DNA of 64,000 bases. Source: Gammaproteobacteria bacterium (GTDB lineage: Bacteria > Pseudomonadota > Gammaproteobacteria > Nevskiales > Nevskiaceae). Of the stretch, positions 9,133-57,358 are shown piece after piece; the stretch's first letter is position 1, and each line of letters starts with the position of its first letter. The DNA is taken from contig JAPLSA010000019.1 in NCBI GenBank assembly GCA_026398815.1, positions 1-64,000 of the forward strand. The letters run 5' to 3'. The position numbers and the translations under genes are program-made. Below the pieces are notes generated by a model. The model did not search any database. It was not told where the DNA came from and saw nothing but the letters and a program-made list of their open reading frames with translations.

Positions 9133-10068
9133 TCAGTCGCCGCTGAGCAGCAGTTGTCCGTTCAGCGTTGCCGAGCGGCTGCCGTCGGCGCTGTGCAACT
9201 GGGTGCCGAACAGCGACAGCGTCCTGCCGCCGCGCGCGTCTGGAGGCGAAAAGCTGACGCCGGCACAGGCGGCGGCGACGCAACGCAGCGTGTCACCGGC
9301 CGAAGCGTCCGACATTTCGACGCTGCGGATGCTGCCGTTCCGATCGGTGCGCAGCCTGATCACGCCGCCATCGACGTTGCTGAAGCTGTACACCGGCGTG
9401 CCGTCTTCGCCCTGCGCGTAGCCATTGCCGCCAAACGCGCAGAAACGCGTGTAGCTGTTGTCGCTGAAATTCAGAGTGACGCCGGTATCGCAGACGGCGC
9501 CGACATTGCCCAGCGCGCCGAGTCGCGCGGTGAGGGTCACCGGCCCGTCCTGCGTGCCATCGTCCACCGGCGCTTCCCGCGCGAGCCGCGTGTCGCTGAG
9601 CGTGATCTCCTGCCGGCCGTTGAAATCGGGCTTGCCGAAGCTCAGGCCCGAACAGGCTTCGCCATCGCAGCCGTATTCCGGGCTGCGATGGCCGTACTCC
9701 ACGCGCATGACGGCACCCGCCGTGGTGTCGATCAGCAGATAGGCATCGCGACCGAGCGAATACCGATAGCGGCGCCGGCTGCCGGTCTGGCTGGCCAGCG
9801 CCGAATCGGCGCAGAGCTGCTTGGTCTTGCCGGCGGATGAGGTGAGCTGCACCTCGCCCTCGCGGCAAGCCTGATCCGGGCCTGGCTGCCCGGCCGGCAG
9901 CGTCGGTGCAGGCGTGGGCGCCGGCCTTGCCGCTGCTGCTGCCGTTGCGCTGGCTGCTGGCGCAGCAGCCTCAACGGCGGCAAGCGGTGCCGGTGCCGCC
10001 GTCCACCAGCGAAATGCCGCGACCAGCAAGGCAACGGCCAGCAGGGCTGCAACGATCGATCGCTTCAT
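9133..10068 (-). CDS. Membrane-anchored protein with two four-cysteine modules, function unknown
   Basis: 311 residues. The first 22 form a signal anchor or uncleaved signal (IVAALLAVALLVAAF), followed by an Ala/Pro-rich linker to about residue 63. The rest comprises two related modules of about 120 residues, each with two upstream cysteines, a Y-x-Y/YSF strand, and then a Cys-x3-Ala-Cys-x-Gly turn (GEACSG; AAACAG) before an R-x-I/L-x-L-x-x-T-x-L strand and a closing L-x-G/A-x-L. The same module occurs three times in the lipoprotein at 14885-16834, indicating shared ancestry or partnership. It is the last gene of the exported-protein run and convergent with the efflux gene. I do not recognise the family. 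Confidence 0.75.
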   Translation of the reverse strand: MKRSIVAALLAVALLVAAFRWWTAAPAPLAAVEAAAPAASATAAAAARPAPTPAPTLPAGQPGPDQACREGEVQLTSSAGKTKQLCADSALASQTGSRRRYRYSLGRDAYLLIDTTAGAVMRVEYGHRSPEYGCDGEACSGLSFGKPDFNGRQEITLSDTRLAREAPVDDGTQDGPVTLTARLGALGNVGAVCDTGVTLNFSDNSYTRFCAFGGNGYAQGEDGTPVYSFSNVDGGVIRLRTDRNGSIRSVEMSDASAGDTLRCVAAACAGVSFSPPDARGGRTLSLFGTQLHSADGSRSATLNGQLLLSGD

Positions 10069-10098
10069 GGTGGCGGCGGCAGGCGTTCCACGGGACGA

Positions 10099-10887
10099 TC
10101 AGGGCCGCAGGCCGCTGACCGGCACCAGGAACCGGCACTGGCCTTCCTCGCCACCCTGACGGACGCCGATGGTGTTGGCGGTCGTGGTGGTCCTCGGCGG
10201 CGTGGTCAGGCGCGCTGCGACGAAATACCAGGCCGAGGTGGCGACGCTGGTGCCGTCCGGATCATCGAAGTTGATGTCGCTGCGGAAGCTGACGTAGTCG
10301 TTGTTGCGCGCCGGATTCAGGCCTTCCGGCGAGCCCGGATACTGATTGAGTCCCTGCGCGGTGCGGCCGGCCAGCCAGATGCCTTCGTCGGCGCCGTCGA
10401 GCCGGTAGGCGATCGAGGTGGCGATGCCGTTGAAGCCGAGGCGGCCGAGGTCGTTGACCTCGAAGAAGTCCGGATCTTCCGCACCACAGGTGGCGAGCGG
10501 CGGCTGCCAGCGGCGGTTGTTCAAGGTGATGCGGATGCCGAACACGTAGTCGGTGCTGGTGCCGCGCCGCCAGACGCGATCGTCAAGCCGGCCGATCTCG
10601 GTGCCGTTGGCGATCACCGCCTGGTTGTTGTTCGACGCATACAGCGCCCAGGTATTGCCGCCCAGGCCGGGGAAGGTGCGGACGCCGTTGGTGGTCGTCG
10701 GGAAGGCGCCGGTGACCCGGCAGACACCAGCGGTCGGATTGCGATTGGACTCGGTGCCCTGACAGACTTTGAGCACCGGCGTGCCGGCGGTGGTCAGCAC
10801 TTCAAAGCCGGCGAAAGACGGTGCCGCCGCCAGACTCAGTCCGAGACCCGCGCCGAGGTTCAGCAAACTGCGCACATGCTGTTTCAT
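10099..10887 (-). CDS. Secreted protein, paralogue of the next gene, function unknown
   Basis: 262 residues with an N-terminal signal peptide (about 1-26, SLAAAPSFA before GFEVL). The mature part holds LKVCQGTE, NRNPT, the NNNQAVIANGT strand, LDDRVWRRG, a PDFFEVND segment and the C-terminal RQGGEEGQC. It is very similar along its whole length to the product of 11033-11824, so the pair arose by tandem duplication. The ATG at 10887 follows a GGAGAG ribosome binding site. No enzyme motif is recognised; a beta-rich extracellular or periplasmic binding protein is possible but unproven. Confidence 0.78.
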   Translation of the reverse strand: MKQHVRSLLNLGAGLGLSLAAAPSFAGFEVLTTAGTPVLKVCQGTESNRNPTAGVCRVTGAFPTTTNGVRTFPGLGGNTWALYASNNNQAVIANGTEIGRLDDRVWRRGTSTDYVFGIRITLNNRRWQPPLATCGAEDPDFFEVNDLGRLGFNGIATSIAYRLDGADEGIWLAGRTAQGLNQYPGSPEGLNPARNNDYVSFRSDINFDDPDGTSVATSAWYFVAARLTTPPRTTTTANTIGVRQGGEEGQCRFLVPVSGLRP

Positions 10888-11032
10888 GACATCTCTCCTG
10901 TTGCAGGACGGAAGTCGACCAGGCTCCGGATGAGCGGCCGACCCTTCCGTCGGTAATCGAATGCAGGCTTCGAGCTGCGGCAGCGCGGTCGGCGTGCTGC
11001 AGCCGTTGCCGGGCGGAATCCTCAATCCGGCG

Positions 11033-11824
11033 TCATGGCTTCAGGCCGTTGAGGTTCACCGCGAACTGGCACTGGCCTTCCTCGCCGCCCTGCCGGAGCC
11101 GGATCGCGTTGGCGACGGCGCTGCTGCTCGGCGGGGTCGACAGGATCACGCGGACGAACATCCACGAGGAATTGGCGTTGCTCTGGGAATCCGGATCGTC
11201 GATGTTGACGTCGGTGCGGAAGTCGACCCAGTCGTTGGCGCGCGTCGGACTCAGGCCGTCCGGGGAACCGGCGTACTGGTTCAGCCCCTGATTGGTCCGT
11301 CCGGAAAACCAGGCGCCTTCTTCGGCCGTGCCCTGGCGATAGGCGATCTGCAGGCCGGTCAGGCCGCTGAAGCCGTTGCGGAACATGTCGTTGACTTCGA
11401 AGTAGTCCGGCGTGGTGACGGCACAGGCCGGCGAAGGCGGCGTCCACAGCGTGTTGACCATCTGCAGCCGGAAGCCGAACACGTATTCGGTGGTGCTGCC
11501 GCGACGCCAGATGCGGTCATCCAGGTTGCCGATCGTCGTGCCGTTGGCGATCACCGCCTGGTTGTTGTTGGTCGCGTAGACCGCCCAGTTGCTGCCGCTG
11601 AGGCCCGGGAAGGTGCCGGTGCTGCTGCCGGTCGGAAAGTTGCCGGTGACCTTGCAGACGCCGGTGGTCGGATTGCGGTTCGCTTCGGTGCCCTGGCACA
11701 GCTTGAGCACCGTGGTGCCGCTGTCGGTGATCGTTTCGAAGGCCGCCTGCGCCGGCATTGCCGCCGCAGCCAGGCCGATGCTCGTCAGCGCCAGTCTGGC
11801 GCCCAACCCTTGCTTGTTCGTCAT
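11033..11824 (-). CDS. Secreted protein, tandem paralogue, function unknown
   Basis: 263 residues with a signal peptide (about 1-27, AAAAMPAQA before AFETI). It shares with its downstream paralogue LKLCQGTE, NRNPTTGVC, NNNQAVIANGT, LDDRIWRRG, TEYVFGFR, DYFEVND, QGLNQYAGSP and RQGGEEGQC. Four cysteines occupy equivalent positions in both, suggesting disulfides. An 82-nt gap separates it from the TonB receptor stop. The dense conserved blocks indicate that both copies are under selection. Its association with a TonB receptor suggests a substrate-binding or surface role, which is inference. Confidence 0.78.
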   Translation of the reverse strand: MTNKQGLGARLALTSIGLAAAAMPAQAAFETITDSGTTVLKLCQGTEANRNPTTGVCKVTGNFPTGSSTGTFPGLSGSNWAVYATNNNQAVIANGTTIGNLDDRIWRRGSTTEYVFGFRLQMVNTLWTPPSPACAVTTPDYFEVNDMFRNGFSGLTGLQIAYRQGTAEEGAWFSGRTNQGLNQYAGSPDGLSPTRANDWVDFRTDVNIDDPDSQSNANSSWMFVRVILSTPPSSSAVANAIRLRQGGEEGQCQFAVNLNGLKP

Positions 11825-11906
11825 CGTCTTCTCCTCGTTTCACGCTCAGGTCTGTCGACGCCGTTCTGGATGAACGGCATCCGCCGTTGGGAAGCTGCTT
11901 CAGGAT

Positions 11907-14888
11907 TCATTGGCCGAACTGGTACGAAACGCCGCCGAAGAATCCGCGCGGCGCACCGGGACCGACAAAGGTGGTGTTCTGGTGTTCGTTCGAGTTGTAG
12001 TTGTAGCCACCGGGGCCGATCGCGCCGTTGACGCTCGGCGTGTACGGCGTCACGCCGAGCCGGCCGGCGCTGAAGTAGGTCTGGTCGAGCAAGTTGGTGA
12101 TCCGGGCGAACACCGTGAAACCGCGCGGCAGGCGGTACGAGGCATCGAAGTTGATGACCGCGTAACCCGGCACGTAGCCCTTCTCGGTGAACGGCCGGCC
12201 GCCGGTGAAGATGCTGCCGACGCGCGGCACCGGCCCGAAGCCATCGGTGATCTGGTCGCTGCCTTCCGGCTGGTGGGCGTTGTTCTCGTTGCCGCGGACG
12301 AAGGAACGCGAGTGGGCGATCGCGCTCAGGCCCAGCTTGAACGACCGGGTCAGCCGCCAGTCGATGCCGGCCGTGAGGTTGTGCAGCGGCACGCCCGGCA
12401 GCAAGGCACCAGGATCGACGCGGATCGCTCTGAACGTGCCGCGGCCGTCGTTGGCATCGGCGGTCGGCGACAGCACGTTGCCGGGCACCGAGTTCTGGTT
12501 GAAATCGGCACTCGAGTTGTTCGGGCTCAGCACATAGAACTCGGACTCGAAGGTGGCCGAGGTCAGCGAATAGCTGGCACGCAGATCGAACGCGCCGGCG
12601 CTGCCCTTGATGCCCAACTCGAAGCCTTCGCGGCGGGTCTTGTCGATGGTGTCGAAGAAGCTGCGCGTCGGCGAGGCACCGGCGAAGTAGATGTCGTCCT
12701 TCAGGTCGGTGCGGAACACGCTGGCATTCCATTCCCAGGCGCCGAACAGCTGTCCGCGGGCGCCGACTTCCGCCGACAGCGAACGGATCTGGGGCAGATA
12801 GGGATCACCGGACAGGGCGGTGGGCAGCGCGCAGGTCGGGCCGACCTGGCTGCGCGGCGCGGTCTGCGGCGGCACATAGACGCCGGTGACCGGATCGATG
12901 AAGCCGGGCGCGGTCTGCACTGGCGTCGGGTCATAGGCGCAGCCCAGTTCGATCACCGACGGCGCTCGCGCACCGCGGCTCAGGTTGACGTACAGGTTCA
13001 CCGTCGGGATCGGCAGCCAGTTGAGGCCGAACGAGGGATTGAACGAGTAGAAGCCGAACTTTTCCCGCGTCACGTCCTGGGCTTCGCGCGCCAGGTTGTT
13101 GGGGATGATCGGCCCGAGCGTGTCCGGGCAGGAGGCCAGGTCGTTGCCCGGGCAGAGGATGAACGTAGGCTCGCGGTTGAGGACTTCGTGGATGTCCTCG
13201 CCGATCCGCGCGGTGACCTGATTGTCGACCTTGTTGATGTTGTAGCGGGCTGACAGGGTCACGAACAGATTGTCGCGGGCGCTCCAGGTCTCGCTGAAAT
13301 AGGCGCTCCAGGTCCGCGACGTGCCGTTGAAGGCGTTGATGGTCAGCGGATTGGCGGCCGCGTAGTAGAGCGGATCGATATTGTCCGGGTCGAGGTAGAC
13401 GCGGCGGTTGTCGTCGATCAGCGCCAGCTGCTGGGTGGCACGGTAACGCGCCCGGCTGTCGTCGTACGAGGCTCCGACCAGCAGCTTGTGATCGGCCAGG
13501 TTCAGGTTCCACTGCAGCGCGCCGCCGTAGGTCAGCTGACCGATCCGGGTGCGGGTGTAGACGCCGTTCGGCGTGCCTTCGACGACACCGGCGGCATCGC
13601 CGAAGACGCCGTTGCTGCCGAGGCCGTAGGCACCGTTGCGTGCCGTGCCGAGGCGGCTGACGTTCCGGCACAGACCTTCCAGGAACGGATCGTTCAGCGG
13701 TGGCTGCAGGCCGCCGCCGGTGACCGTGTCGCGCAAGCCGTCGCCGTCGACATCGGCATAGCGGCAGACCGGGTCGTCCGGATTGGTGATGACGCGGTTG
13801 GCCTGGTTGCCGCTGAAGAAGAACTCGTCGAAATCGTCGTAGGCATCGCCGTTCAGGCTCTTGCGGCGGCTGTCGCGGCGATACAGCTGGGTGGTCAGGC
13901 TGGACTGGTCGGTGAGATCGAACAGGCCGGACAGATTGATCTGCGAAGCGCGGTTGCGGGTCTGGTCCGGCGAGGTGAACACCGCCGAACGGTCGTTGCG
14001 GAACATCTCGATCGGCACCAGGCCGTTGCCGATCAGGCGGTTCCCGGAAACCAGCGCGCTGGCGGTGACGGTGCCGACATCGAGCCGGTAGTCGGCGCGG
14101 CCGAAGCCCTGCACCAGCCGGCTCGGCGAGTTGTCGCGCCAGCCGTCCTCATCGAAGTAGTGGACGGCACCGAAGCCGGCCAGCGGCCCCTGGCTGCCGC
14201 CGGCGGCGACCTGCAGCTGGCGTCGCCCGAACGAGCCGGCCAGCGCATCGGCTTCGACGCCCTTGGCGGTGAAGCCGCTCTTCGAGCGCAGGCTGATCGC
14301 GCCGCCCAGCGTGTTCAGGCCGAACACCGGGTTCGAGCCGGGGAACAGATCGAGCCGCTCGATCGCATTGGTTGGCAGCAGATCCCAGTTGACGATGTCG
14401 CCGAACGGTTCGTTGACCCGCACGCCATCGAAGAACACCGACAGGCCCTGCGGCGTGCCGAGCTGCGGGCCGGCGGTGAAGCCGCGGAAGGTGACGTCGA
14501 CCTGAAACGGATTGCCCTGGTAATCGTTGACGGTGACCGACTGCAGGCGGTTGTTGAAGAAATCGGCGATGCCGATCGAATGCGAGGCGCGAATCTCCTC
14601 GGCGGTGGCGCTCTGGATGGCGCTGGGAATCTGGTCGCGCGTCAGGTTCAGGCCGGGTAGCGGTCCGGCCGAAACCGGCGGCCGTTCACCTTTGACGTCG
14701 ACCGGGCCCAGCTCGATCTTCGCCGGGCCTTTCGGACTGTCGGCGGCGGCCGGTGGCGGTGGCGCGTCGCTCTGGGCCTGAGCTTGGGTTTGGGCCTGGG
14801 CATCGGCGACGAACATCAGCAGGCCGGCCGCGAACAGCCTGGCAGCCGGGCGCTGGCGGAAATGGCGGATGGCGCGTCGGTCGTTCAT
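11907..14888 (-). CDS. TonB-dependent outer-membrane receptor
   Basis: 993 residues. The signal peptide (about 1-33, ending DAQAQ) is followed by a Gln/Ala/Pro-rich stretch, a TonB-box-like PVDVKGE, a plug domain (FRGF, DGVRVNEPFGD, GSNPVFGLNTLGGAI) and a 22-strand-type beta barrel ending in the outer-membrane signature with terminal aromatic residues (GGVSYQFGQ). It is longer than average because of extended extracellular loops containing several cysteines. Its ATG overlaps the stop of the upstream lipoprotein gene (ATGA), implying translational coupling. Such receptors import scarce substrates with TonB-ExbBD energy; the ligand is unknown. Confidence 0.9.
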   Translation of the reverse strand: MNDRRAIRHFRQRPAARLFAAGLLMFVADAQAQTQAQAQSDAPPPPAAADSPKGPAKIELGPVDVKGERPPVSAGPLPGLNLTRDQIPSAIQSATAEEIRASHSIGIADFFNNRLQSVTVNDYQGNPFQVDVTFRGFTAGPQLGTPQGLSVFFDGVRVNEPFGDIVNWDLLPTNAIERLDLFPGSNPVFGLNTLGGAISLRSKSGFTAKGVEADALAGSFGRRQLQVAAGGSQGPLAGFGAVHYFDEDGWRDNSPSRLVQGFGRADYRLDVGTVTASALVSGNRLIGNGLVPIEMFRNDRSAVFTSPDQTRNRASQINLSGLFDLTDQSSLTTQLYRRDSRRKSLNGDAYDDFDEFFFSGNQANRVITNPDDPVCRYADVDGDGLRDTVTGGGLQPPLNDPFLEGLCRNVSRLGTARNGAYGLGSNGVFGDAAGVVEGTPNGVYTRTRIGQLTYGGALQWNLNLADHKLLVGASYDDSRARYRATQQLALIDDNRRVYLDPDNIDPLYYAAANPLTINAFNGTSRTWSAYFSETWSARDNLFVTLSARYNINKVDNQVTARIGEDIHEVLNREPTFILCPGNDLASCPDTLGPIIPNNLAREAQDVTREKFGFYSFNPSFGLNWLPIPTVNLYVNLSRGARAPSVIELGCAYDPTPVQTAPGFIDPVTGVYVPPQTAPRSQVGPTCALPTALSGDPYLPQIRSLSAEVGARGQLFGAWEWNASVFRTDLKDDIYFAGASPTRSFFDTIDKTRREGFELGIKGSAGAFDLRASYSLTSATFESEFYVLSPNNSSADFNQNSVPGNVLSPTADANDGRGTFRAIRVDPGALLPGVPLHNLTAGIDWRLTRSFKLGLSAIAHSRSFVRGNENNAHQPEGSDQITDGFGPVPRVGSIFTGGRPFTEKGYVPGYAVINFDASYRLPRGFTVFARITNLLDQTYFSAGRLGVTPYTPSVNGAIGPGGYNYNSNEHQNTTFVGPGAPRGFFGGVSYQFGQ

Positions 14889-16834
14889 TCGAGGAAGCTG
14901 CGATCCGGCGCGCTGAGCAGCTGGCCTTGCAGGCTGACCCGGCGATCGCCCGGCCGGTCGCCGAGCAGCACCTCCGGCACCGTGACCGGCGCGATGCGCA
15001 CCGGGTGCGCGCTCTGGACATTGGCCGGGCCGATGCTCACCGCCGACAGGCAGGCGGCATCGGTGCAGGCGAAGCTTTCGCCCTGGGCGCGGTCGTACTG
15101 GAGCCTGCGGACCAGACCGGAAGGGCTGGCGACGATCGTCAGGTAGGACTCGCTGCGCGGCTGCCGGTTGGCGAAGCTGTAGGCGTAGTCGCCGAGCTGG
15201 GCGCCGGGGAACCGGCCGATGTTGGCGTCGCGGATCACGAAGCCGGCGACCGTGCCTTCGTCGAGGTCGTAGGGCGGGCACAGATCCCAGGCGTCGGCTT
15301 CCCCTTCGATGCGCACGCGCAGCGTTTCGCTGGCCGGGGCGGCCGTGCAGTCGGGCGGGATGCGGTCGATGCGATTGCCGAGATTGATGCCGCCGTCGAG
15401 CGTCACCGGGCTGCCGCCGCTCAGGCTGGGCAGCACGGTGCCGGTCAGGCTCAGCGTCCGCTCGGCATTGGTGAGGTTGCCGAGCGTCACGAAGTCGCCC
15501 AGCACGGCGCCATTGCAGGCGTCGCCGACGCATTCGTACAAGGGCACCAGCGCCAGGTCGTCCTCGTCCTGCTGGAACAGCGTGATGCTCAGCAGGCGGT
15601 TGCCGTCCACCCGCACTTCCGGCACCGGAAGGACGTCGATGGCCGCGCGATAGACATAGCGCGCGCTGGCCACCGCCTCGAAGCGGACATTGGCGCTCGC
15701 GCACTGCGCCGTCGCGCTGCCATCGGCCGAGGCGACGAACAGCGGCAGTCCCTCGGCGCCATCGCAGTTGATCGCCGGCCGGCCGGGCACGCCGCCGATC
15801 GCGGTGCCGACCAGCAGCGCGGTGCTGCCGTCAGCGGCCGTCAGCACGGTGTTCGAGAAGCTCAGCGGCCGCGAGCGATCGCTGACTTCGCCGCCAACCA
15901 TCACCAGGCTGCAGCCCGCGTCGACGCAGCGGTACGGCGGCAGGCCCGAGCGGCGCAGTTCGATGCCGATCACCGTGTTGTCGCGCAGCCGCAGGCTCAG
16001 CGTGTTGCCGCGGATATCGAACAGACGGAACACCAGCACCGAGGCATCAGCCTCGTCCGGCAGCGCGTCGCGGGTCGCCGGACAGAACGGGTAGAACTCC
16101 GGGCCCACGGTGATGCCGATCTGCTCGCGGGCGCAGCGCGCCAGTTCGCCGACGCGGTTGTTCGGATAGCTGCCGGGCACGAACTGGTTGCGGGCGATGC
16201 TGGCGCTCAGGCGGGCCAGCGTGTCGTGCATCGGATCGCCCGCCACCGGGACGAACGGCGTGGTCACCCAGTCATCCGTGGCGACCGACGCCGGCACGAC
16301 GATGCCGAGTTCCTGGCGCAGCAGGCGCACCACGGTGGCCTGGGCGTTGGCGATCGCCTCATCGGTGAACGGCGCGAAGTCGGCGATCCGGGCAAAGACC
16401 GGGATCGAAGAAGGGGTCAGCAGCCGGTTGAAGTAGGTCGCCGGCTCCTGGCGGGCCAGTTCCAGCACCACCAGCCGGGTCAGCGGCGTGACATTGATGG
16501 TGCCGCTGCTGGCCCGAGTGACCGCCGCGACATCAAGCGGAACGGCATCCGGGTTGTCGAGCGGATCGGCCGAGCCGAGCACCAGATACGGCGCCGTCAA
16601 CGCCGCCAGCGGCACGATGAAGCGGCCGTTCGATGCGAAGCGGCCATCCCGGGGAAAGGTGCCGTTGCTGGCCACCTGGACTTCGGTGCGCGAGGCCGGC
16701 TGACCGATGCTGACGACGCCGGAGAAGGTCGGCAGCACCGGCGGCGGATCGGCGATGCGGCCGTCGTCGCGGCCGCAGCCGGCGAGGAGTGCCGCTGCCA
16801 GCAACGCGGGAAATCTGCGCGAGCGGATGTTCAT
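14885..16834 (-). CDS. Large lipoprotein with three four-cysteine modules, function unknown
   Basis: 649 residues starting with a lipoprotein signal peptide; the lipobox LLAGC places the lipidated Cys at residue 20. The N-terminal half contains a carboxypeptidase-regulatory-like strand region (FSGVVSIGQP) and a helical part. The C-terminal half carries three modules with CVDAGC, CVGDAC and CTDAAC turns, each followed by a strand such as RTLSLTGTVL and a closing L-x-G-x-x. The same module appears twice in the protein at 9133-10068. Both ends overlap neighbours by 4 nt: its ATG with the stop of the giant exported protein and its stop with the TonB receptor ATG. It probably sits at the outer membrane with that receptor. 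Confidence 0.8.
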   Translation of the reverse strand: MNIRSRRFPALLAAALLAGCGRDDGRIADPPPVLPTFSGVVSIGQPASRTEVQVASNGTFPRDGRFASNGRFIVPLAALTAPYLVLGSADPLDNPDAVPLDVAAVTRASSGTINVTPLTRLVVLELARQEPATYFNRLLTPSSIPVFARIADFAPFTDEAIANAQATVVRLLRQELGIVVPASVATDDWVTTPFVPVAGDPMHDTLARLSASIARNQFVPGSYPNNRVGELARCAREQIGITVGPEFYPFCPATRDALPDEADASVLVFRLFDIRGNTLSLRLRDNTVIGIELRRSGLPPYRCVDAGCSLVMVGGEVSDRSRPLSFSNTVLTAADGSTALLVGTAIGGVPGRPAINCDGAEGLPLFVASADGSATAQCASANVRFEAVASARYVYRAAIDVLPVPEVRVDGNRLLSITLFQQDEDDLALVPLYECVGDACNGAVLGDFVTLGNLTNAERTLSLTGTVLPSLSGGSPVTLDGGINLGNRIDRIPPDCTAAPASETLRVRIEGEADAWDLCPPYDLDEGTVAGFVIRDANIGRFPGAQLGDYAYSFANRQPRSESYLTIVASPSGLVRRLQYDRAQGESFACTDAACLSAVSIGPANVQSAHPVRIAPVTVPEVLLGDRPGDRRVSLQGQLLSAPDRSFLE

Positions 16835-19800
16835 CGGCACCGCCGACGCCGCAGCGCCACCAGCATCAGCAGCCATAAGGGATTGATGGCGCCACCGCCT
16901 CCCGACGACGGTGCCGGACCAGGGCCCGGGCCGGGCCCTGGTCCCGGATCGATGGCGGCGGCCGTCGTGGTCCGGAACTGGGCGCTCAGGTTGCCGATGG
17001 CCACGGTCGTCACCGTCGTGGTGCCTGGACGATCGGAGCTGGTGTGGCGCACGCGCAGGCTGTCGCCGTTGGCGATGATGCCGACCGGGGTCACGAACGG
17101 CCCGCCGTTGATCGAGTACTCGCCGTTGATCACCGAGATCAGGGTCGGCACCTCGATGCCGCCGACGGTGATCGCGTTCGATACCTGCGCGGTCAGCAGC
17201 GCAGTCCCGTCGACGGCCGTGAATGCATAGGGATCCGGCGAGGTATCGGCGGCGCGGGTGATGACCACGAAATCGCCGGACACGCCACCGAGGGTCAGGG
17301 TCGCCCGGCTGGTGGTGGTGAAGCCGGCGGCGGCGATGTGCTCGACCCGCACCGCCGCGCCGTTGCCGACCCGCCCCGGCGCGGCCGTGAACGTCGCACC
17401 GTTGACCGAATAGCGGCCGTTGGCGACGGCGATCGGCACCGGCGCCTCGATGCCGGCCACGAACACGGTGGCCGAGATCACCGCGTCGCCGGGTGTCGCG
17501 CCGCTGGCGGCTGCGATCGTGAAGGCATCGGGAATCACGTCGGCGTCGCGCGTGGTGACATCGAACCCGGCCGAGACGCCGCCGATGTTCAGCGTCGCCG
17601 TCGTGGTGGTCGCGAAGTCGTTGCTGGCGGTCTGCTGCACGCGCACGTTGTCGCCGTTGGCGATCGTGCCGGTGACCGTCGTGGCGGCACCGCCGTTGAT
17701 CGAGTACTGGCCGTTGACCACGCTGATCGTCGCTGGCGCTTCGATGCCGCTGACGATCACCGCGCCGCTGCTGATCACCGCGCCGGGCGATGCGTTGTTG
17801 AACGGCGCGAAGCTGAAGCCGTTGGGCACCGTGTCGGCACCCCGGGTGGTGACGCTGAAGCTGCCGGTGACGCCGCCCAGGTCGACCGTTGCCGTCGTCG
17901 TGGTCGCAGGCAGGTTCGCTGCCGTCAGCTGCAGGCGAAGGGTGTCGTTGTTGCTGACCAGGCCGGCGAGCGCGGTGAACGGGCCGTCGTTGATCGAATA
18001 CAGGCCGCCGGACACCGTGATCGCAACCGGCACTTCGATGCTGCTGACGATGCTTGCCGCCGAGGTCACCCGTGCGCCGGGCTCGGCTCCGGTCACCGGG
18101 GCGAAGCGCGGCGGATCGGCGCTGGCGTCGCCGGCGCGGGTGGTGACCGTGAACGAGCCCTGCCGGCTGCCGATGCGCAGGGTGGCGGTGACCGGCGTCG
18201 AGAACTGCGCCGAGGCGGTCAGCCGCACACGCACCCTGCTGCCGTTGCCGACCGTGCCCGGCGTCGCCGTGAAGGGGGCGCCGTCGATCGAGTACAAGCC
18301 GCCGCTGATGCTGATCGCTTCCGGCTCGGCCAGATCGGAGACGGTGAACGCGGCCGAGGTCACGGTGGCGCCAGGTTCGGCATCGGTGACCGGCGGGAAG
18401 TTCGCGCCGCCCGGCGTGCCGTCGGCGGTTCGGGTGGTGATCCTGAAGTCGCCGCTGACGCCGCCGATGGTCAGGATCGCTGTCGTCGTGGTCGCTGGCA
18501 GATTGGAAGCGGTGCCCTGCACGCGGACCGAGTCGCCGGCGTTGACCAGGCCGGCGCCGCTGGTGAACGCGCCGCCGTTGACCGAGTACAGGCCGCCGCG
18601 GATCGAGATCGGCGCCGGCGAATTGATGCCGGCCACGGTGATCGCATCGGAGATCACCAGGCTGTTCGGTTCCGCGCCAGTGACGGCGGTGAACGCGAAC
18701 GGCGTCGGCGTGGTGTCCGGGGCGTCGACGGTGGTGACGCTGAACGGGATCGCCAGGCCGCCGATGTTCAGCGTGGTGACGGTGGTGGTCGAGAAAGCGG
18801 TCGAGGCCGACTGCTGCACGCGCACCGTATTGCCGTTGTTGACGGTGCCGATCATCGCGCTGGTGAACGGCCCGCCGTCGATCGAGTACAGGCCGTTGCT
18901 GACGCTGATCGAAGCCGCCGCCTCCAGGCCGGAAACGGTGATCGGCGCCGATGTCACGGTGGCGCCGGGTGTGGCGCCGGTGACCGGCGGGAACGCCACC
19001 GCATCCGGCGTGGTGTCGGCGGCGCGGGTGGTGACGCTGTAGCGGCCGCTGACGCCGCCGATGACCACGGTGGCGACAGTGGTGGTTTCGAAGGCCGTCG
19101 ATGCCGTCTGCTGCACGCGCACGACATCGAGGTTGGAGACGCTGCCGGCCGCTGCGGTGAACGGCCCGCCATTGATCGAGTAGCGGCCGCCGCTGACGGT
19201 GATCGGCGACGGCGACTGCAGCCCGGTGATCACCGCGCTGTCGGACACCACCACCGCGCCCGGTTCGGCGTTGCCGAGCGCCGGGAAGCTGAAGGGCAGC
19301 GGCACGGTGTTGCCATCGCGCGTGCGGACGGTGAAGTCACCCGACACGCCGCTGACGGTCAGGGTCGCGGTGACCGTGGTCGAGAAGTTCGCCGAGGCCC
19401 GGGTACGAACGCGAATGCGCTCGCCGCCGTACACCTGGGTCGGATCGCTGACGTAGTCGCCGCCGTCGATGTTGTAGCTGCCGTTGGCGATCGACAGGTT
19501 CGCCGAGGTGTCGATGCCGGCGATGACGATTTCGTTGCTGGTCTGCGTGCTGCCGGGCTCCACACCGCTGACCGGCGTGAACGAGAAGGGATCGACCGTG
19601 AAGTCGCCTTCGCGCGCAGTGATGGTGACCGGGACGTCGGTGAAGCCGGTGGCACCGTCGTTGTCGGTCACCGTGAGCCGGAAGGTCAGCACCGACGTCG
19701 CGTCAAGCTCGGGGGTGGTGAAGCTGGCGTTGGCCGAGAAGGCGCTGTCGATGCTGACTTCGGGCCCGCTGGTCTGGCGCCAGCTGAACTGGGCCACCGC

Positions 19801-22692: not shown

Positions 22693-23042
22693 CGGTGGCT
22701 CCCTCCCCTCAGCTGGCACGAACGTTTCTTGTGCGCCTGCCGCCGGGGACCGTCATTGCGGTGCCGCCGCGCCAGCAGACTTTATGTTTCCGGCAGCCGA
22801 TGCTTCGGCGGTCGGTGTCGAGGCGGTGAAATTACCGTCCGGGCTGCGTGCCGAGTAGGTGAAAACTTCCCGACGTCAGTCCGCGCGACGGCCGCCGGTC
22901 GGCATGGGTCGGCAGCAGATGGCGACGGTCGGGGCGGGAATCGGGACGGCGTCAGGCAGCGGCGGCGAGCGTCGCGGTGGCCTGCGCCGGGCGCAGCGGG
23001 GCCGAAGCGCCCGGCATGGGGCGCTCCGAACGAGGGCGGGGG
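22693..23042. other. 350-nt intergenic region between gspF and the giant exported gene
   Basis: No convincing gene, RNA or strong terminator is seen. On the minus strand the last 12 nt before the giant gene supply its GGGAG ribosome binding site. An ACATAAAGTC sequence about 90 nt upstream of that start could be part of a promoter, but no -35 partner is evident. The gap suggests that the exported-protein genes have their own promoter rather than relying only on gsp read-through. Confidence 0.4.
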
Positions 23043-24269
23043 TTACTGGACCAGCTGGTTCAGGTTGAAGATCGGCAGCAGGATGGCCAGCACGATCAGC
23101 AGCACCACCGAGCCCATGGTCAGGATCAGGATCGGTTCGAACAGGCTCATCAGCGCGGCGATCAGCGTTTCCAGTTCGCGTTCCTGGTTTTCGGCGGCGC
23201 GGTCGAGCATCTCGTCGAGCTTGCCGGAGGCTTCGCCGCTCCCGATCAGGTGCATGGTGATCGGCGGGAACAGCCGGCTTTCGGCCAGCGACTTGTTGAG
23301 GCTGGCGCCTTCGCGGACGCGCTTGGCGGCGGCGTCGATCGCTTCCTTCATCGGCAGGTTCTCGACTACCTGGCTGCCGATCCGCATGGCGTCGAGGATC
23401 GGCACGCCGGAGCCGAACAGGATGCCCAGGGTGCGCATGAAGCGGCCGGTGTTGGCGCCGCGGGCGAGGCGACCGATCAGCGGCAGGCGCAGCACCCAGA
23501 GGTGGTACTTGCGGCGGAAGTTGTCGCTCTTCAGTGCCTGCTTGAAGACCAGGAAGCCGAGGATCAGCGCCACGAAGATGCCGAGTCCCCAGGCCTGCAG
23601 GAAGTCGCTGGTGGCGATCAGGCCCTTGGTCAGCGGCGGCAGATCGGCGCCGATCGAATCGAACACGCCGACCACCTTGGGCACCACGTAGGCCATCAGC
23701 AGCGCGATCACGCCGATGGCGACGAAGGTCAGGATCGCCGGATAGAAGGTGGCGAGCATCACCTTGCTGCGGATCGCCTGCGAGCGTTCGGCGTAGTCGG
23801 CCAGACGCTCCAGCACCGAATCCAGCTTGCCGGCCGATTCGCCGGCTTCGATCGTGGCGCGGAACAGCGGCGGAAAGGCGCCGGGGAAATCGCCGAGCGC
23901 CTTGGCCAGGCTGTTGCCTTCGGTGACCCGCGAGCGCACGCCGAGCGTCACCCGCTGCACGCGCTTGGACTCGCTCTGCTGCGACACCGCAGCCAGGCCT
24001 TCATCGAGCGGCAGGCCGGAGCGGATCAGGGTCGCCAGCTGGCGGGTGAACAGCGACAGCTCGGTGGAATTGAAGCTGCCACCGCGGTTCATCGAGAAGC
24101 CGCCGGCGCTCGCGGCCTTGACCGCCTTGTCGGCGACTTCGCGGATTTCCAGCGGCGTCAGGCCGCGCTCACGTAGGCTCTGCCGGACCTGGCGCTGGGT
24201 GTCGCCCTCGATCAGGCCCTTGACCTGTTTGCCGCGGGCATCGAGGGCGCTGTATTCGTAGGCGGACAT
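23043..24269 (-). CDS. gspF: Type II secretion inner-membrane platform protein GspF
   Basis: 408 residues with the two repeated T2SSF domains of GspF/PilC proteins: an N-terminal Y-E-Y-x-A-L-D-x-x-G-K start, GEASGKLD in the second domain, its equivalent GESAGKLD in the first, and three hydrophobic segments (around 170, 220 and 380). GspF anchors the secretion ATPase and pseudopilus assembly at the inner membrane. It is the last of four gsp genes here; gspG and the other pseudopilin genes that normally follow are absent from this locus. Confidence 0.94.
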   Translation of the reverse strand: MSAYEYSALDARGKQVKGLIEGDTQRQVRQSLRERGLTPLEIREVADKAVKAASAGGFSMNRGGSFNSTELSLFTRQLATLIRSGLPLDEGLAAVSQQSESKRVQRVTLGVRSRVTEGNSLAKALGDFPGAFPPLFRATIEAGESAGKLDSVLERLADYAERSQAIRSKVMLATFYPAILTFVAIGVIALLMAYVVPKVVGVFDSIGADLPPLTKGLIATSDFLQAWGLGIFVALILGFLVFKQALKSDNFRRKYHLWVLRLPLIGRLARGANTGRFMRTLGILFGSGVPILDAMRIGSQVVENLPMKEAIDAAAKRVREGASLNKSLAESRLFPPITMHLIGSGEASGKLDEMLDRAAENQERELETLIAALMSLFEPILILTMGSVVLLIVLAILLPIFNLNQLVQ

Positions 24270-24343
24270 GGCTCAGGGCGCGGGCGGCGGCAGGAAGCGG
24301 AAGGCGGGAAACGAGGCGCGGCAGCCGGCACGGACCGCCGCGA

Positions 24344-25843
24344 TCATTCCTCGATGGTGACGCGCAGCACTTCGCTCAGCGTGGTTTCGCCGGCGATCAC
24401 CTTGTTGCGTCCGGACTGCAGGATGCCCGGCGTGCGCTCGCGGGCAGCCGCTTCGAGAATCTGCTCCGAGGCGTTGTCGTGGATCAGCGATTCCAGCCGG
24501 CGATCGACTTCGATGATCTCGTGGATGCCGCTGCGGCCGGCGTAGCCGGTATGTCGGCACAGCGGACAGCCGACCGGCTTGTAAAGCACCAGATCGGTGC
24601 GCTCCGGCACGCCGAGCTGCTCCAGTTCCACCTGCTTCGGCGTGTACGGCATCTTGCAGTGCTTGCACAGGGTGCGCACCAGGCGCTGCGCCATCAGGCC
24701 GACCAGCGACGACGACAGCTGGTAGGGCTCCACGCCCATGTCACGCAGGCGGGTGACGGCACCGACGGCGGTGTTGGTGTGCAGGGTCGACATCACCAGA
24801 TGGCCGGTCTGCGAGGCCTGCACGGCGATCTGCGCGGTATCGAGATCGCGGATTTCGCCGACCATCACCACGTCCGGGTCCTGACGCAGGATCGCGCGCA
24901 GGCCCCTGGCGAAGGTCATCTCGACACGCAGATTGACCTGGGTCTGGCCGACGCCGTCGATGTAGTACTCGATCGGGTCCTCGACGGTCATGATGTTGCG
25001 GCTGCGGTCGTTCAGGGTCGACAGCGCCGAATACAGCGTGGTGGTCTTGCCGGAGCCGGTCGGACCGGTGACCAGCATGATGCCGTAGGGCCGGTTGATG
25101 ATCCGCTTCAGGGTCGCGGTCTGCACCGGACCCAAGCCCAGCTGCTCGAGATCCAGGCGCTCGGCCTGCTTGTCGAGGATACGCATCACCACGCGCTCGG
25201 CATTGGCGCCGGTCGGAATCGTCGACACACGCACGTCGACCTTGCGGCCGCCGAACGCGCGGCTGATGCGGCCGTCCTGCGGCAGGCGCTTCTCGGCGAT
25301 GTCGAGCTTGGCCATGATCTTGACGCGCGAGATGATCTTCGGCGCCAGCGAACGCGGCGGGTTGAGGATCTCGCGCAGCACGCCGTCGATGCGGAAGCGC
25401 ACCGTCACCCGGGTTTCGAAGGTCTCGATGTGGATGTCGGAGGCGTTGTCCTTGATCGCCTCGACCAGCAGGCCGTTGATGAACTTGATGATCGGCGCGT
25501 CGTCGTCGGACTCCAGCAGGTCCTGCGCCTCTGCCAGCGCGGCGGACAGCGAGTCGAGGTCGGCCTTGTCTTCCTCCAGGCCGTCGGCCAGCGCCGCGCT
25601 GGCGCCGGTCTGGCCTTCGTAGGTGCGCTGCAGCAGCGCATCGAATTCCTCGAGGCTGACGGCCTTCAGCTTCACCGGACGGCGCACGAAGCGCCGCGCT
25701 TCCTGCACGGCATCAAGGCTGACGCCGGGCCGGCAGACGAGTTCGACGGTGTCGCCGAGATCGGTCGACACGATCAGCCCGTGGCGCTTGGCGAACGCGA
25801 ACGGCGGTCGACGCAGGGCGTTGCTGACAGCATCCATGGCCAT
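24344..25843 (-). CDS. gspE: Type II secretion ATPase GspE
   Basis: 499 residues of the hexameric ATPase that powers pseudopilus assembly. Visible elements are the N1E-type N-terminus, Walker A GPTGSGKTT, Asp box TVEDPIEYY, Walker B-region QDPDVVMVGEIRD, the His box HLVMSTLHTN and the tetracysteine zinc-binding site (CKHC and CPLC). All are intact. ATG codons at 25843 and 25837 are possible starts; the first is used. It lies 13 nt after gspD. Confidence 0.94.
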   Translation of the reverse strand: MAMDAVSNALRRPPFAFAKRHGLIVSTDLGDTVELVCRPGVSLDAVQEARRFVRRPVKLKAVSLEEFDALLQRTYEGQTGASAALADGLEEDKADLDSLSAALAEAQDLLESDDDAPIIKFINGLLVEAIKDNASDIHIETFETRVTVRFRIDGVLREILNPPRSLAPKIISRVKIMAKLDIAEKRLPQDGRISRAFGGRKVDVRVSTIPTGANAERVVMRILDKQAERLDLEQLGLGPVQTATLKRIINRPYGIMLVTGPTGSGKTTTLYSALSTLNDRSRNIMTVEDPIEYYIDGVGQTQVNLRVEMTFARGLRAILRQDPDVVMVGEIRDLDTAQIAVQASQTGHLVMSTLHTNTAVGAVTRLRDMGVEPYQLSSSLVGLMAQRLVRTLCKHCKMPYTPKQVELEQLGVPERTDLVLYKPVGCPLCRHTGYAGRSGIHEIIEVDRRLESLIHDNASEQILEAAARERTPGILQSGRNKVIAGETTLSEVLRVTIEE

Positions 25844-25856
25844 CGTTCCGGCGGGC

Positions 25857-28016
25857 TTACGGGGTCGGCGCGGCGGCGTCAGCCGGTGCCGGGCTGGCGG
25901 CTGGCGCGGCGCCGGCATCCGGTGCGGCGGCCGGCGCCGGCGGCACCACTTCCAGCGGTGGCGTCGCGGCCGGCTTGGCGTACGGCTCGTAGCTGTCGAA
26001 CTGCGGCAGCACCGGCCGGGCGCCGCCGATCAGCGGCACCGCGCCCTGGGCCGCCCGCACCTCGGCGTTGCGCACGCCGTCGTAGCGCTTGCGGGTGTAG
26101 TAGTCGGCCTCGGTGCGGTCATCGAGGATCACCGGATGAATGAAGATCATCAGGTTGGTCTTGGCCTTGCGGACCGAGCGCGACTTGAACAGGTTGCCGA
26201 GCACCGGGATGCTCGACAGCAGCGGGATGCGGCTCTGCGAGTCGGTCAGCTGGTTGTCGATCAGGCCGCCGATGAACAGGATCTGATCGCCTTCCACTGA
26301 AACCGAATTGGTCACCGTGCGCTTGTTGGTGATCAGGCTGGCGGTGCCGGCGCCGCCGCTGGCGATGCCGGAGCTTTCGAGGTCGATCTTCAGCTTCAGG
26401 CCGCTGTTCTCGTTGATCGTCGGGGTGATGCCCAGCTTCAGGCCGACTTCCTTGCGTTCGATGGTCTGGAACGGGTTGACCGCGCCATTGGTGGCGCCGC
26501 CGCCGGTATTCGAGAAGCTGCCGGTCAGGAACGGCACTTCCTGGCCGACGCTGAGCTTGGCTTCCTCGTTGTCGAGCGTGGTCAGCTGCGGCGTCGACAG
26601 GATGTTGGTATCGCCATCCGACGCCAGCGCCCGGAGCAGCACGCCGAAGAACGAGCCGCCCTTGGTGAAGCCGCCGCCGCCTGCGGTGGCGCCGGAGCCG
26701 ATCAGCGAGGCGGCGGCCGACAGGATGGTGCTGGTGCCGCCGGTGGCGGCGCTCGTCGCGGCGCTCGCGCCAGCGCTGGCCAGCGTGGACAGCGCGCCCT
26801 GCGTCGACTGGTTGAGGATGCCGGTGATCGCACCGACCTTCGGGTTGTAGGCGGCGTAGTCGAGGCCCAGTTCGCTGGCCTTGGTCTGGCTGACCTCGGC
26901 GATGATCGCCTCGACCAGCACCTGGCGGCGGCGGATGTCGAGCTGGTTGATGACGTTGCGGATCGCCAGCATTTCCTTCGGGCCGGCGGTGACGACCAGC
27001 GAGTTGGTGTCCTTGTCGGCGATCACCCGGGTGCCGTTGGCGCCGCCACCGGACGATGCCGCGGCCGCCGGCGCGGCACCGCCGGCGGCGCTGGCGGCTG
27101 CCGGTGTCCGGGCTACCGTGGCAGCGGCCTGGGCATAGCCTTCGAGGATCGGCGCAAGGTTCTCGGCGCTGGCGTAGTTCAGGTAGAACACCTGGGTGTC
27201 GCCACCGCTCGGCCCCGGCATGTCGAGCCGGCGGATGATTTCGGCCATGCGGCCGCGTTCGCTCTTCTCGCCGCTGATCAGCACGCTGTTGCTGCGTTCG
27301 TCGGCGATCACCGAACCTGCCTGCGCGGTCGGATCGGCCTGCTTGGCGGCCTGTGCCAGCGTGGTGAGGATGCGCACGACATCGCCGGCGGCGGCGTTCT
27401 CGAGCTTGATGACGTCGATCTCGCGGTCACCGCTCTGGTCGATCTGGGCGATCAGCCGTTCGATGCGGGTGACGTTGGCCGCGCGATCGGAAATGATCAG
27501 CGAGTTGTTGCCGGCGTAGGCCGCGAAGTGGCCGCTCTGCGAAATCAGCGGCCGCAGGATCGCCACCAGCTGCGAGGCCGACACGTTCTGCACCGAATAG
27601 ACGTGGGTGACGATCTCGTCGAGCGGCACGCCGCGACCGTTGGAGATCAGGCCGCCGCCGTCGGTGCGGGCGTTGGTTTCCGGCACGATCTTGATCGCAT
27701 CGCCAGCCGGGATTGCCGCGAAGCCCTGCACCTGCAGCACCGCGAGGAAGGTTTCATAGACGCCGGCCGCATCCATCGGGCTCGACGACACCACGGTGAC
27801 CTTGCCGCGCACGCGCGGGTCGACGATGAAGTTCCGGCCGGTGACCTCGCTGACGGTGGCGATCAGCGTGGAGATTTCCGCGTCCTTCAGGTTCAGCGTC
27901 ACCTCGGCGCCGCGGCTGCGGGCAGCCTGTGCGATCGAGGCCGCGCCGGTGGCGGCGACCAGCGCCGCGATGGCGCTGCTCAGCACGGCGCGTTTCAGGG
28001 TCTTGCGTGAGTTCAT
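25857..28016 (-). CDS. gspD: Type II secretion outer-membrane secretin GspD
   Basis: 719 residues: signal peptide (about 1-32, ASIAQAA), N0 domain (LNLKDAEISTLI...GRNFIVDP), N1-N3 ring domains, and the C-terminal secretin core (SVGQEVPFLTGS, EVGLKLGITPTI, PLLSSIPVLGNLF). N3 contains an Ala/Gly-rich insertion around residues 300-330, common in secretins. The C-terminus is an Ala/Pro-rich tail that could be the S-domain region bound by a pilotin. It forms the gated outer-membrane channel for folded exoproteins. Confidence 0.94.
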   Translation of the reverse strand: MNSRKTLKRAVLSSAIAALVAATGAASIAQAARSRGAEVTLNLKDAEISTLIATVSEVTGRNFIVDPRVRGKVTVVSSSPMDAAGVYETFLAVLQVQGFAAIPAGDAIKIVPETNARTDGGGLISNGRGVPLDEIVTHVYSVQNVSASQLVAILRPLISQSGHFAAYAGNNSLIISDRAANVTRIERLIAQIDQSGDREIDVIKLENAAAGDVVRILTTLAQAAKQADPTAQAGSVIADERSNSVLISGEKSERGRMAEIIRRLDMPGPSGGDTQVFYLNYASAENLAPILEGYAQAAATVARTPAAASAAGGAAPAAAASSGGGANGTRVIADKDTNSLVVTAGPKEMLAIRNVINQLDIRRRQVLVEAIIAEVSQTKASELGLDYAAYNPKVGAITGILNQSTQGALSTLASAGASAATSAATGGTSTILSAAASLIGSGATAGGGGFTKGGSFFGVLLRALASDGDTNILSTPQLTTLDNEEAKLSVGQEVPFLTGSFSNTGGGATNGAVNPFQTIERKEVGLKLGITPTINENSGLKLKIDLESSGIASGGAGTASLITNKRTVTNSVSVEGDQILFIGGLIDNQLTDSQSRIPLLSSIPVLGNLFKSRSVRKAKTNLMIFIHPVILDDRTEADYYTRKRYDGVRNAEVRAAQGAVPLIGGARPVLPQFDSYEPYAKPAATPPLEVVPPAPAAAPDAGAAPAASPAPADAAAPTP

Positions 28017-28077
28017 GTCGGGGTCGAACGGGCTTCGGGTTCGGCTGCCGCAAGGCGCGCCATGGAGTCGGGGACAG

Positions 28078-29004
28078 CTATTCGAGATTGATGCTGAAGC
28101 TTTGCGGCTGGCCGCCGCGATCGACCGTGAGATTGATCTGGCTGCTCTGGCTCAGCTCGTTCAGCATCTGCAGCGAGCGCGCCGGGTCGTTCAGCGCCAT
28201 GCCGTTGACGGCGGTGACGACATCGCCCGGGCGCAGGCCGGCGGCCGCGAACACCGAGCGGTCGCGGCCCGGGTAGATGCGGTAGCCAGTCAGCCCGTTG
28301 CCGCTATTGACCGGCTGCACACGGATGTAATCGGCCACTTTCGACGGATCTTCAAGCAGCTGCGAACGGATCTGCGACAGCGATTCGGCGGCGCTGCCGT
28401 CGATGCTCTGCTCGGGCGCTGTCTGCAGCTGGTCGATCGGTGCGCCGGTCAGGCTGCTGGTGCTGTCCTTGTCCAGCCGCAGCGTCTCCAGCTTGCCGTT
28501 GCGGTTGAGGATGACGCGGTCCGGGAAGATCGCGGTGAGCTGCACGCCGCGCGACACGTCATCGCCAACGGCGTACGGCTGTTCGTCGCCCCCCTGCGAG
28601 GCGATCAGCGCCCGCGAGCGGCTGTCCTTGTCGTTGCGGCCGTTCGACAGGATGCCGAGCAGGGTCAGGTTCAGCTGAGTGTCCGGCGCGGCGGCCAGGT
28701 CGGCGAGCGCCGGTGCCGCAGGCGCGGTGTACTGGCCGAACAGGTGGGCATTGCCGATCGCGTTGAGGTCGACGCCGCGACGCGTCGCCGTGGCTGCGGC
28801 CTGCGCCGGCGGCGGCTGCCAGACCGCATCGGCCGGCGCCGGAACCAGCGCCCAGACCAGCTCGGCCGCCAGCTTCGCGATCACCACGACCAGCACCACG
28901 CTGGCCAGTTCCGGCAGCCGTCGACCATAACGGGCAGTCAAAGCCGGCACGCGGCCGGGCAGCGCTTGGAGTCTCGACGGGGAAAATGTAGCCATTGTCA
29001 GCAT
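28078..29004 (-). CDS. gspC: Type II secretion protein GspC
   Basis: About 308 residues: a short cytoplasmic part, one transmembrane helix (LASVVLVVVIAKLAAELVWA), the homology region that contacts the secretin (NAHLFGQY... LTLLGIL) and a C-terminal PDZ domain (YRIYPGRD...LRPGDVVTAVNG). GspC links the inner-membrane platform to GspD and helps recruit substrates. The start is uncertain: ATGs at 29004 and 28995 both lack a strong ribosome binding site. It heads the gspC-D-E-F operon and is divergent from clpS. Confidence 0.88.
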   Translation of the reverse strand: MLTMATFSPSRLQALPGRVPALTARYGRRLPELASVVLVVVIAKLAAELVWALVPAPADAVWQPPPAQAAATATRRGVDLNAIGNAHLFGQYTAPAAPALADLAAAPDTQLNLTLLGILSNGRNDKDSRSRALIASQGGDEQPYAVGDDVSRGVQLTAIFPDRVILNRNGKLETLRLDKDSTSSLTGAPIDQLQTAPEQSIDGSAAESLSQIRSQLLEDPSKVADYIRVQPVNSGNGLTGYRIYPGRDRSVFAAAGLRPGDVVTAVNGMALNDPARSLQMLNELSQSSQINLTVDRGGQPQSFSINLE

Positions 29005-57171: not shown

Positions 57172-57358
57172 CGGGGCGGAAGATTAGCATTGACCTGCCC
57201 CGCCTGAACCGGGCGGGGCCGCCCTTGTGCTGGCAGGGATGACGGCAGCGGCGCGCCGGCTGGCGAGGCCGGCAACGGCGATGGCGACGACCGCCGGAGG
57301 GTCTGCCGCAGGCATGCCCTCCAGCGGTCGCCGCCGGTCGATCGCCGCCGGCTTGCGC

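Follow-up and report, generated by a model that had tools for sequence, protein, structure and literature searches.

An accessory lipoprotein and TonB-receptor cassette, with a predicted pseudonuclease in one of its types, beside type II secretion genes of a Nevskiaceae bacterium

Gene content of the locus

We analyzed the window, a stretch of 64,000 nt at positions 1 to 64,000 of contig JAPLSA010000019.1 from a gammaproteobacterium of the family Nevskiaceae (GenBank assembly GCA_026398815.1), whose source assembly is a draft genome of 4.30 Mb in 32 contigs with a completeness of 95.6%. From position 29004 down to 9133, ten minus-strand genes follow one another: gspC, gspD, gspE and gspF of the type II secretion system (T2SS), a gene for a giant protein, genes for a lipoprotein (LP) and a TonB-dependent receptor, and three genes designated C, B and A. 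The first-pass annotation had placed ten same-strand genes at these positions, which gene and family identification confirmed. As shown below, the row consists of two parts: gspC to gspF are standing equipment of the genus, and LP, receptor, C/B and A form an accessory cassette, bordered by gspF on one side and a convergent transporter gene on the other, with the giant as an optional member. Gene calls in related genomes were made with a codon-usage-based caller and have approximate start positions; signal peptides, the lipobox and the membrane helix were judged by eye. The features of the locus are as follows.

28078..29004, minus strand: gspC, T2SS housekeeping gene; flank, outside the accessory cassette (TIGR01713, 134.1 bits, cut-off 101.6)
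25857..28016, minus strand: gspD, secretin; flank (TIGR02517, 560.5 bits, cut-off 351.35)
24344..25843, minus strand: gspE, ATPase; flank (TIGR02533, 669.6 bits, cut-off 630.25)
23043..24269, minus strand: gspF; flank (TIGR02120, 505.4 bits, cut-off 424)
22861..22872, minus strand: leader element CGGGAAGTTTTC, pattern CGGGAANWTTTC, present in the leaders of all 7 cassettes
16831..22692, minus strand: giant, predicted pseudonuclease of ExeM/NucH descent with LTD, Calx-beta, OB/YhcR, EEP and PKD regions, nine repeats and a GlyGly-CTERM tail
14885..16834, minus strand: LP, lipoprotein with an N-terminal PgcA-like domain and three C-x4-C repeat copies
11907..14888, minus strand: TonB-dependent receptor (PF00593, 130 bits; PF07715, 47.6 bits)
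11033..11824, minus strand: C, exported protein of a family confined to cassette carriers
10099..10887, minus strand: B, paralogue of C
9133..10068, minus strand: A, with an N-terminal membrane helix, an Ala/Pro linker and two copies of the LP repeat
7837..9105, plus strand: convergent transporter gene, bounding the insertion site on the opposite side; flank

In the window, the giant and LP genes overlap by 4 nt (16831-16834), as do the LP and receptor genes (14885-14888), just as had been reported. The giant/LP overlap is conserved in 4/4 mapped giant carriers. The 4-nt overlap of LP and receptor is found in the window and in G007 only; it measures 1 nt in G016, and a gap of about 12-13 nt takes its place in G002, G010 and G013. 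Upstream, a spacing of about 320-350 nt separates gspF from the giant in the window, and an AsmA-family gene lies between the two in G002 and G013. Because of this spacing and the intervening gene, the gsp genes and the cassette need not share a transcript.

LP has the lipobox LLAGC and contains a repeat of about 120 aa three times. The repeat, in which two cysteines are conserved (C-x4-C), recurs in A with two copies and is found almost exclusively in cassette carriers. The N-terminal part of LP resembles the PgcA non-heme domain (Foldseek E 2.3e-5, probability 1.00, target template modeling (TM) score 0.50; sequence E 0.049), and LP has zero Pfam matches at E <= 0.01. All six copies of A that were read have the N-terminal membrane helix and an Ala/Pro-rich linker; A lacks a lipobox and may therefore remain in the inner membrane. 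C and B, which are 58-59% identical, look secreted, and A, B and C gave zero Pfam or NCBIfam matches at E <= 0.01. The receptor has both TonB-receptor Pfam domains. Its nearest solved sequences are PqqU/YncD, with matches at the plug end (E 3e-9 and 1.4e-8), and an assignment as PqqU was rejected on the score against NF041535 (55.9 bits, cut-off 1200). Two further candidates were discarded: a riboswitch-controlled vitamin receptor, since nothing in 8900-29600 exceeded an Rfam gathering score, and a defence system, since A, C and LP gave zero PADLOC matches at E <= 0.1.

Distribution, insertion site and exchange of the cassette

Next, we compared the locus across related genomes. LP, receptor, C/B and A are carried by the same seven of the 18 genomes of the genus, namely G000 (the source genome), G002, G007, G009, G010, G013 and G016. 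Searches in wider sets hardly extended this list. LP was matched in 9/100 genomes, these being the seven carriers and two genomes with the N-terminal part only, and C in 7/100; the receptor at E <= 1e-80 was matched in 8/61 genomes (the carriers and a distant relative in G026), and the LP/A repeat also in 8/61 (the carriers and one marginal partial match in G079, E 0.007). When an LP profile was run on 369 genomes of the class, nine genomes other than the source matched it, all over the N-terminal part only, and a wide distribution of LP was consequently rejected. A search of contigs with the C profile, a pattern scan that distant relatives may escape, found 6 loci in 5 assemblies, four of Nevskia sp. 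and one of a Lysobacteraceae bacterium, all of them metagenome-assembled genomes.

The locus was mapped in six carriers (G000, G002, G007, G010, G013, G016), and in G009 the cassette is divided over three contigs. All six mapped carriers have the gene order LP, TonB receptor, C/B, A. A single C/B gene is present in G010, where it is closer to B, and in G007 and G016, where it is closer to C. The giant lies between gspF and LP in 5/7 carriers; in G007 and G016 it is missing and LP directly follows gspF. The genome-wide search for the giant scored at most 4 candidates per genome. G007 and G016 hold a second cassette type, in which LP is 32-35%, the receptor 61-63% and C 57% identical to the proteins of the window, so that LP diverges more between the types than the receptor does. 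The first-pass annotation had taken the six genes behind gspF as one set: LP, receptor, C/B and A indeed stay together in the same seven genomes, and the giant does not belong to this constant core.

In the type II carriers G007 and G016, clpA and clpS are separated by two additional genes (L061:1148-3144, L062:1132-3129). By eye, the first begins like an alpha/beta hydrolase; neither the window nor G002 or G013 showed this pair.

The gsp genes are distributed differently from the cassette, as gspF was detected in 18/18 genomes of the genus. We inspected the locus in six of the 11 non-carriers (G004, G008, G012, G014, G015, G017) and found the cassette core missing from it in 6/6. In G004, G008 and G014, the convergent transporter gene comes directly after gspCDEF; the gspF of G014 is 96-97% identical, and only 9 nt lie between it and the transporter gene there. 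G012, G015 and G017 have the AsmA-family gene in this interval. In all six mapped carriers, the cassette occupies the same interval, after gspF or after gspF and the AsmA gene. Close relatives thereby provide natural controls, a single insertion site being empty in some and filled in two different ways in others.

The AsmA-family gene (L063:15064-17034; PF05170, 152 bits), which follows gspF in several genomes of the genus, has a weak match to the GspN model below its cut-off, and it may be a T2SS accessory gene because GspN is AsmA-like.

These observations bear on the earlier proposal that all ten genes form one system, in which gspCDEF and the six following genes cooperate and the giant is a dedicated substrate and capture protein. 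We regard such a system as improbable. The position of the cassette directly behind gspF (or gspF and AsmA) in 6/6 mapped carriers would fit it, as would the rhombosortase/T2SS-substrate type of the giant's tail. However, gspF is present in 18 genomes against seven with the cassette and five of these seven with the giant, the AsmA gene separates gspF from the giant in G002 and G013, and the cassette has a leader element of its own. As a single unit, the ten genes were rejected, since gspCDEF occurs without the cassette in every non-carrier inspected.

Comparison of trees for the cassette and its flanks revealed a conflict. For the flank proteins (gspD, gspF and transporter), G016 groups with G000, G010 and G014, and the pair {G007,G016} is rejected (p 0.0002). 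For the receptor and LP, G016 groups with G007, and {G000,G010,G016} is rejected (p 3e-42 and 1e-65, respectively). Therefore, cassette versions have been exchanged among lineages; the alternative to recent transfer is that old cassette versions were differentially lost among lineages, combined with recombination. Within type I, synonymous distances of giant, LP and receptor are 0.27-0.35 for G000-G002 versus 0.45-0.53 for G000-G010, and the flanks show the reverse (0.23-0.35 for G000-G010 versus 0.44-0.55 for G000-G002). For C and B, computed for the G000-G002 pair only, the distances are 0.36 and 0.48, the latter not low like those of giant, LP and receptor. The giant rejects G000 and G010 as sisters (p 0.0185). 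Exchange within type I rests on this result and on the synonymous distances, because the TonB (p 0.265) and LP (p 0.169) trees by themselves do not reject the pair. The TonB tree was computed without G009 and the LP tree without G009 and G013, as genes split over contigs were omitted, and the gspD row of G010 ends early at the locus edge.

Descent, catalytic motifs and export of the giant

The giant has a length of 1962 aa when read from the GTG at 22719, the start chosen in the first-pass annotation; the first ATG is at 22692. LTD, Calx-beta and PKD domains score above their Pfam cut-offs, an Exo_endo_phos stretch remains slightly below (22.3 vs 24.5 bits), and nine repeats follow each other with a period of 98-100 aa. 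Residues 342-936 match PDB entries 9sf8 and 9sf9 (E 9e-63 and 6.4e-63), and the ExeM/NucH nuclease family NF033681 is matched with 80.4 bits, below its 300-bit family cut-off. In an EEP tree built by a quick method, omitting duplicates (L066, L067, L069) and partial rows (L042, L046), the five giants form one clade that joins the intact paralogue of the genus (SH-like approximate likelihood ratio test (SH-aLRT) 99). Judged by these matches and the tree, the giant descends from secreted nucleases of the ExeM/NucH type.

The repeats recur elsewhere in the source genome: long open reading frames (ORFs) of 1205, 1434 and 1873 aa at G000:C23:719582-746414 match them and represent another cluster of large proteins with repeats.

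The catalytic motifs of the EEP region are altered in all five cassette copies of the giant. We aligned them with 23 fetched relatives, which are a sample, with smaller denominators where rows are incomplete at a site. Position 623, the Asn of YNxEN, is Ala or Ser in the five giants and Asn in 23/23 relatives; position 656, the Glu of LxExQD, is Gly in the giants and Glu in 22/22; position 792, the Lys of NHxxSK, is Thr or Ala in the giants and Lys in 20/20; and position 929, the last His (SDHD), is Arg in the giants and His in 20/20. In this family, the replaced residues are metal-binding and catalytic ones. All five giants retain GDxN and the first His, as well as the Asp and His of DHIL. 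Position 787, in front of the first His, is not a marker, being Ser in the giants and Val in 3/21 relatives.

G002, G009, G010 and G013 hold both the cassette giant and an intact paralogue, whereas in the source genome, at the completeness given above, an intact ExeM paralogue was not found and the altered copy is the only one. The giant is still under purifying selection, with ratios of nonsynonymous to synonymous substitution rates (dN/dS) in the EEP region of 0.22 (G000-G002) and 0.44 (G000-G010), compared with 0.39-0.43 over the whole gene for two pairs of intact paralogues. Compared with four intact paralogues, the giant is 58-61% identical in the OB/YhcR region, 46-48% in EEP and 35-40% in LTD; among the giants or among the paralogues, OB and EEP identities differ by at most 7 points.

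An ordinary active nuclease was rejected in view of the replacements in 5/5 copies, and the best reading is that the giant is a predicted pseudonuclease. A role in binding rather than cutting fits the loss of catalytic-motif residues, and the giant may thus have kept binding without cutting. It is doubtful that the altered EEP region is still an enzyme, of another chemistry or for another substrate, and that the giant feeds the receptor as a secreted phosphoesterase. Such an enzyme would agree with the retained GDxN, first His and DHIL Asp-His and with the purifying selection on EEP, but all five giants have jointly lost the Asn, Glu, Lys and last His, and the replacement residues are themselves conserved. 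Among published work, our literature search on secreted pseudonucleases returned nothing on the subject; the match found concerned a kinase.

Besides, the ExeM-like gene of G017 (L027:1501-5124) is interrupted by an in-frame TGA and a TAG and looks decayed, though its catalytic motifs are intact.

We further looked into the export of the giant. Its tail exceeds the TIGR03501 cut-off of 15.5 with 22.5 bits (21.6 in the genome search), and one further ORF of the source genome passes this model. The same genome has a rhombosortase (TIGR03902, 146.8 bits, cut-off 84), GspN (PF01203, 101.5 bits, cut-off 29.6) and all T2SS genes from gspC to gspN. Of these, gspG to gspN lie on another contig, where the rhombosortase gene stands adjacent and divergent (L165:1419-7854), an arrangement that links the sorting enzyme to the T2SS. 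The giant is therefore a likely substrate of the T2SS, and its earlier description as a probable secreted protein gains support from the tail, the rhombosortase beside gspG-N and the presence of GspN. In Vibrio, GlyGly-CTERM and rhombosortase suffice for membrane association, and translocation across the outer membrane requires a second signal (PMC13393428). In Shewanella, ExeM was reported to show no major effect of the absence of rhombosortase (PMC6085458). For this reason, anchoring of the giant is not to be assumed.

The other GlyGly-CTERM ORF (L130:1486-3063) has a PKD-repeat-like region near its end and the basic tail LRRRRRLD.

The architecture of the giant also allows another view of the whole locus, which we consider possible, though unlikely. 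In it, the giant would serve as an adhesin on the surface or as a protein of the biofilm matrix, and phages, colicins or partner recognition would keep the cassette diverse as a variable surface locus, with the receptor merely one of several exposed proteins and no import via LP. The nine repeats with Calx-beta, PKD and LTD domains, the similar repeat proteins elsewhere in the genome, the exchange of the cassette and the divergence of LP far above that of the receptor between types speak for it. On the other side, LP, receptor, C/B and A occur together in all seven carriers and the giant does not, one repeat is common to LP and A, and the OB region is better conserved than EEP relative to the intact paralogues.

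Predicted working, precedents and the leader element

We see about an even chance that the locus encodes a TonB-dependent capture and import cassette beside T2SS genes, in which the giant would be a non-cutting scaffold exported through the T2SS. The accessory, exchanged cassette of LP, receptor, C/B and A is inserted beside gspCDEF, with the predicted pseudonuclease added in one type. The giant would be exported by the T2SS, might be processed or surface-anchored via rhombosortase and could serve at the surface as a scaffold for binding, perhaps of nucleic acid. LP would capture a ligand at the outer membrane and hand it on to the TonB receptor for import; A, with its LP repeat and a periplasmic-side tether, may then take it over, and C and B might be small exported accessory binders. 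The repeat common to LP and A makes it possible to picture concretely how a ligand might be relayed across the outer membrane. The first-pass annotation had already suggested a capture protein handing a ligand through the lipoprotein to the receptor. The lost catalytic-motif residues suit the binding role, but the giant is not an essential capture protein for LP and receptor, because it is missing from G007 and G016.

A bolder version is TonB-driven import of a polymer, for example extracellular nucleic acid. Here, the disarmed nuclease would act as surface bait, the lineage-specific repeat would bind cargo outside (LP) and inside (A) the outer membrane, and the relay through the receptor would be exchanged among Nevskia lineages at the T2SS locus; we think this version rather improbable. 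A secreted nuclease that is without these catalytic-motif residues, yet still under selection, beside a lipoprotein and a TonB receptor is an unusual, directly testable case of a surface enzyme turned binder.

The nearest precedent is found in Caulobacter crescentus, where the genes of the lipoprotein ElpS (elpS, cc0170) and of a TonB receptor (cc0171) adjoin gspC-N; the authors propose a functional interaction of the pair and note that elpS and T2SS genes are similarly organized in Xanthomonas campestris, Sphingomonas alaskensis and Hyphomonas neptunium (PMC2996285). The likeness is one of gene arrangement: lipoprotein and receptor genes stand at gsp genes in both. The Caulobacter pair lies upstream of gspC-N, whereas the cassette lies downstream of gspF, occurs in only 7/18 genomes of the genus and adds a predicted pseudonuclease, the LP/A repeat and C/B. 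Consequently, the term "undescribed" used before was too strong for the arrangement, which is a second case, after the published one, of a lipoprotein/TonB-receptor pair at a T2SS locus. Titles and opening lines of abstracts on Nevskia with TonB or type II secretion contained nothing on this locus.

Several points weigh against the capture and import cassette. The giant is missing from two of the seven cassettes, and the TonB and LP trees do not reject G000 and G010 as sisters. The structure models are of little help: that of LP is weak (predicted local distance difference test score (pLDDT) 66, predicted TM score (pTM) 0.39), and that of C is poor (pLDDT 54) and matched no PDB fold at E <= 0.001. 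The TonB receptor could have a role in signalling instead. In Caulobacter, deletion of cc0171 left ElpS production going, elpS and cc0171 are under separate regulation, and ElpS requires the T2SS to be released but not to reach the surface (PMC2996285). In light of these results, gene neighbourhood is no proof of joint function.

Bipartite pairs of a lipoprotein and a TonB receptor are known from TbpB/TbpA and SusD/SusC, and here, too, the lipoprotein gene adjoins the receptor gene. LP is without a Pfam match. TbpB structures were matched with Foldseek E of 3e-4 to 5e-4, but at a TM score of about 0.1 and a root-mean-square deviation of about 21 A from the LP model (pTM as above), so that no fold identity was counted.

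The giant shares with Shewanella ExeM (PMC6085458) the LTD, OB/YhcR-like and EEP regions and the GlyGly-CTERM tail. It differs from ExeM/NucH (Xds) in its additional Calx-beta, PKD and repeats, in its size of nearly 2000 aa versus 871, and in its lost catalytic-motif residues. Similarly, tail, rhombosortase and T2SS are present as for GlyGly-CTERM/rhombosortase substrates such as VesB of Vibrio; apart from a DNase, the named substrates are for the most part proteases (PMC13393428), in contrast to the giant as a predicted pseudoenzyme.

In Acinetobacter, T2SS-exported lipoproteins depend on GspN and have more than 4 Gly/Ser or Asn/Asp residues of one class after the lipid Cys (PMC12802150). GspN is likewise present in the source genome, and the post-Cys residues of LP fit only partly: the stretches from the lipid Cys read CGRDDGRI, CGRDNGRI, CGRDDGRT and CPDDDGRA, with 4/7 Gly/Asp/Asn and no class above 4. 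The background for post-lipobox residues consisted of 4 candidates (two LPs, one C protein), too small for a statistic.

Finally, we examined the cassette leader. In 22500-23200, no consensus sigma-70 promoter or terminator was found. The pattern CGGGAANWTTTC is present in the leader of 7/7 cassettes of both types and absent from the six non-carrier loci fetched. It has 6 matches in the source genome, against 1 for the reversed control; three are within called ORFs, and the other three stand in front of the giant, of another TonB-receptor gene (C18) and of a predicted porin-like gene. The element may be an operator common to a group of receptors, which we regard as a lead and not as a result.

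The same element CGGGAAGTTTTC (L007:3814-3825) lies about 100-130 nt upstream of another TonB-receptor gene of the source genome (L166:5195-7519). G026, of another genus in the same family, has a TonB receptor (L116:9349-11592) about 32% identical to that of the cassette, with the pattern occurring as CGGGAATATTTCCCG at L116:11877-11888, about 285 nt before the called start. The window itself holds a second TonB-receptor gene (57359-59533), which stands at 56728-62146 by the gene of a small, His-rich-ended membrane protein and, by eye, an apparent two-component system.

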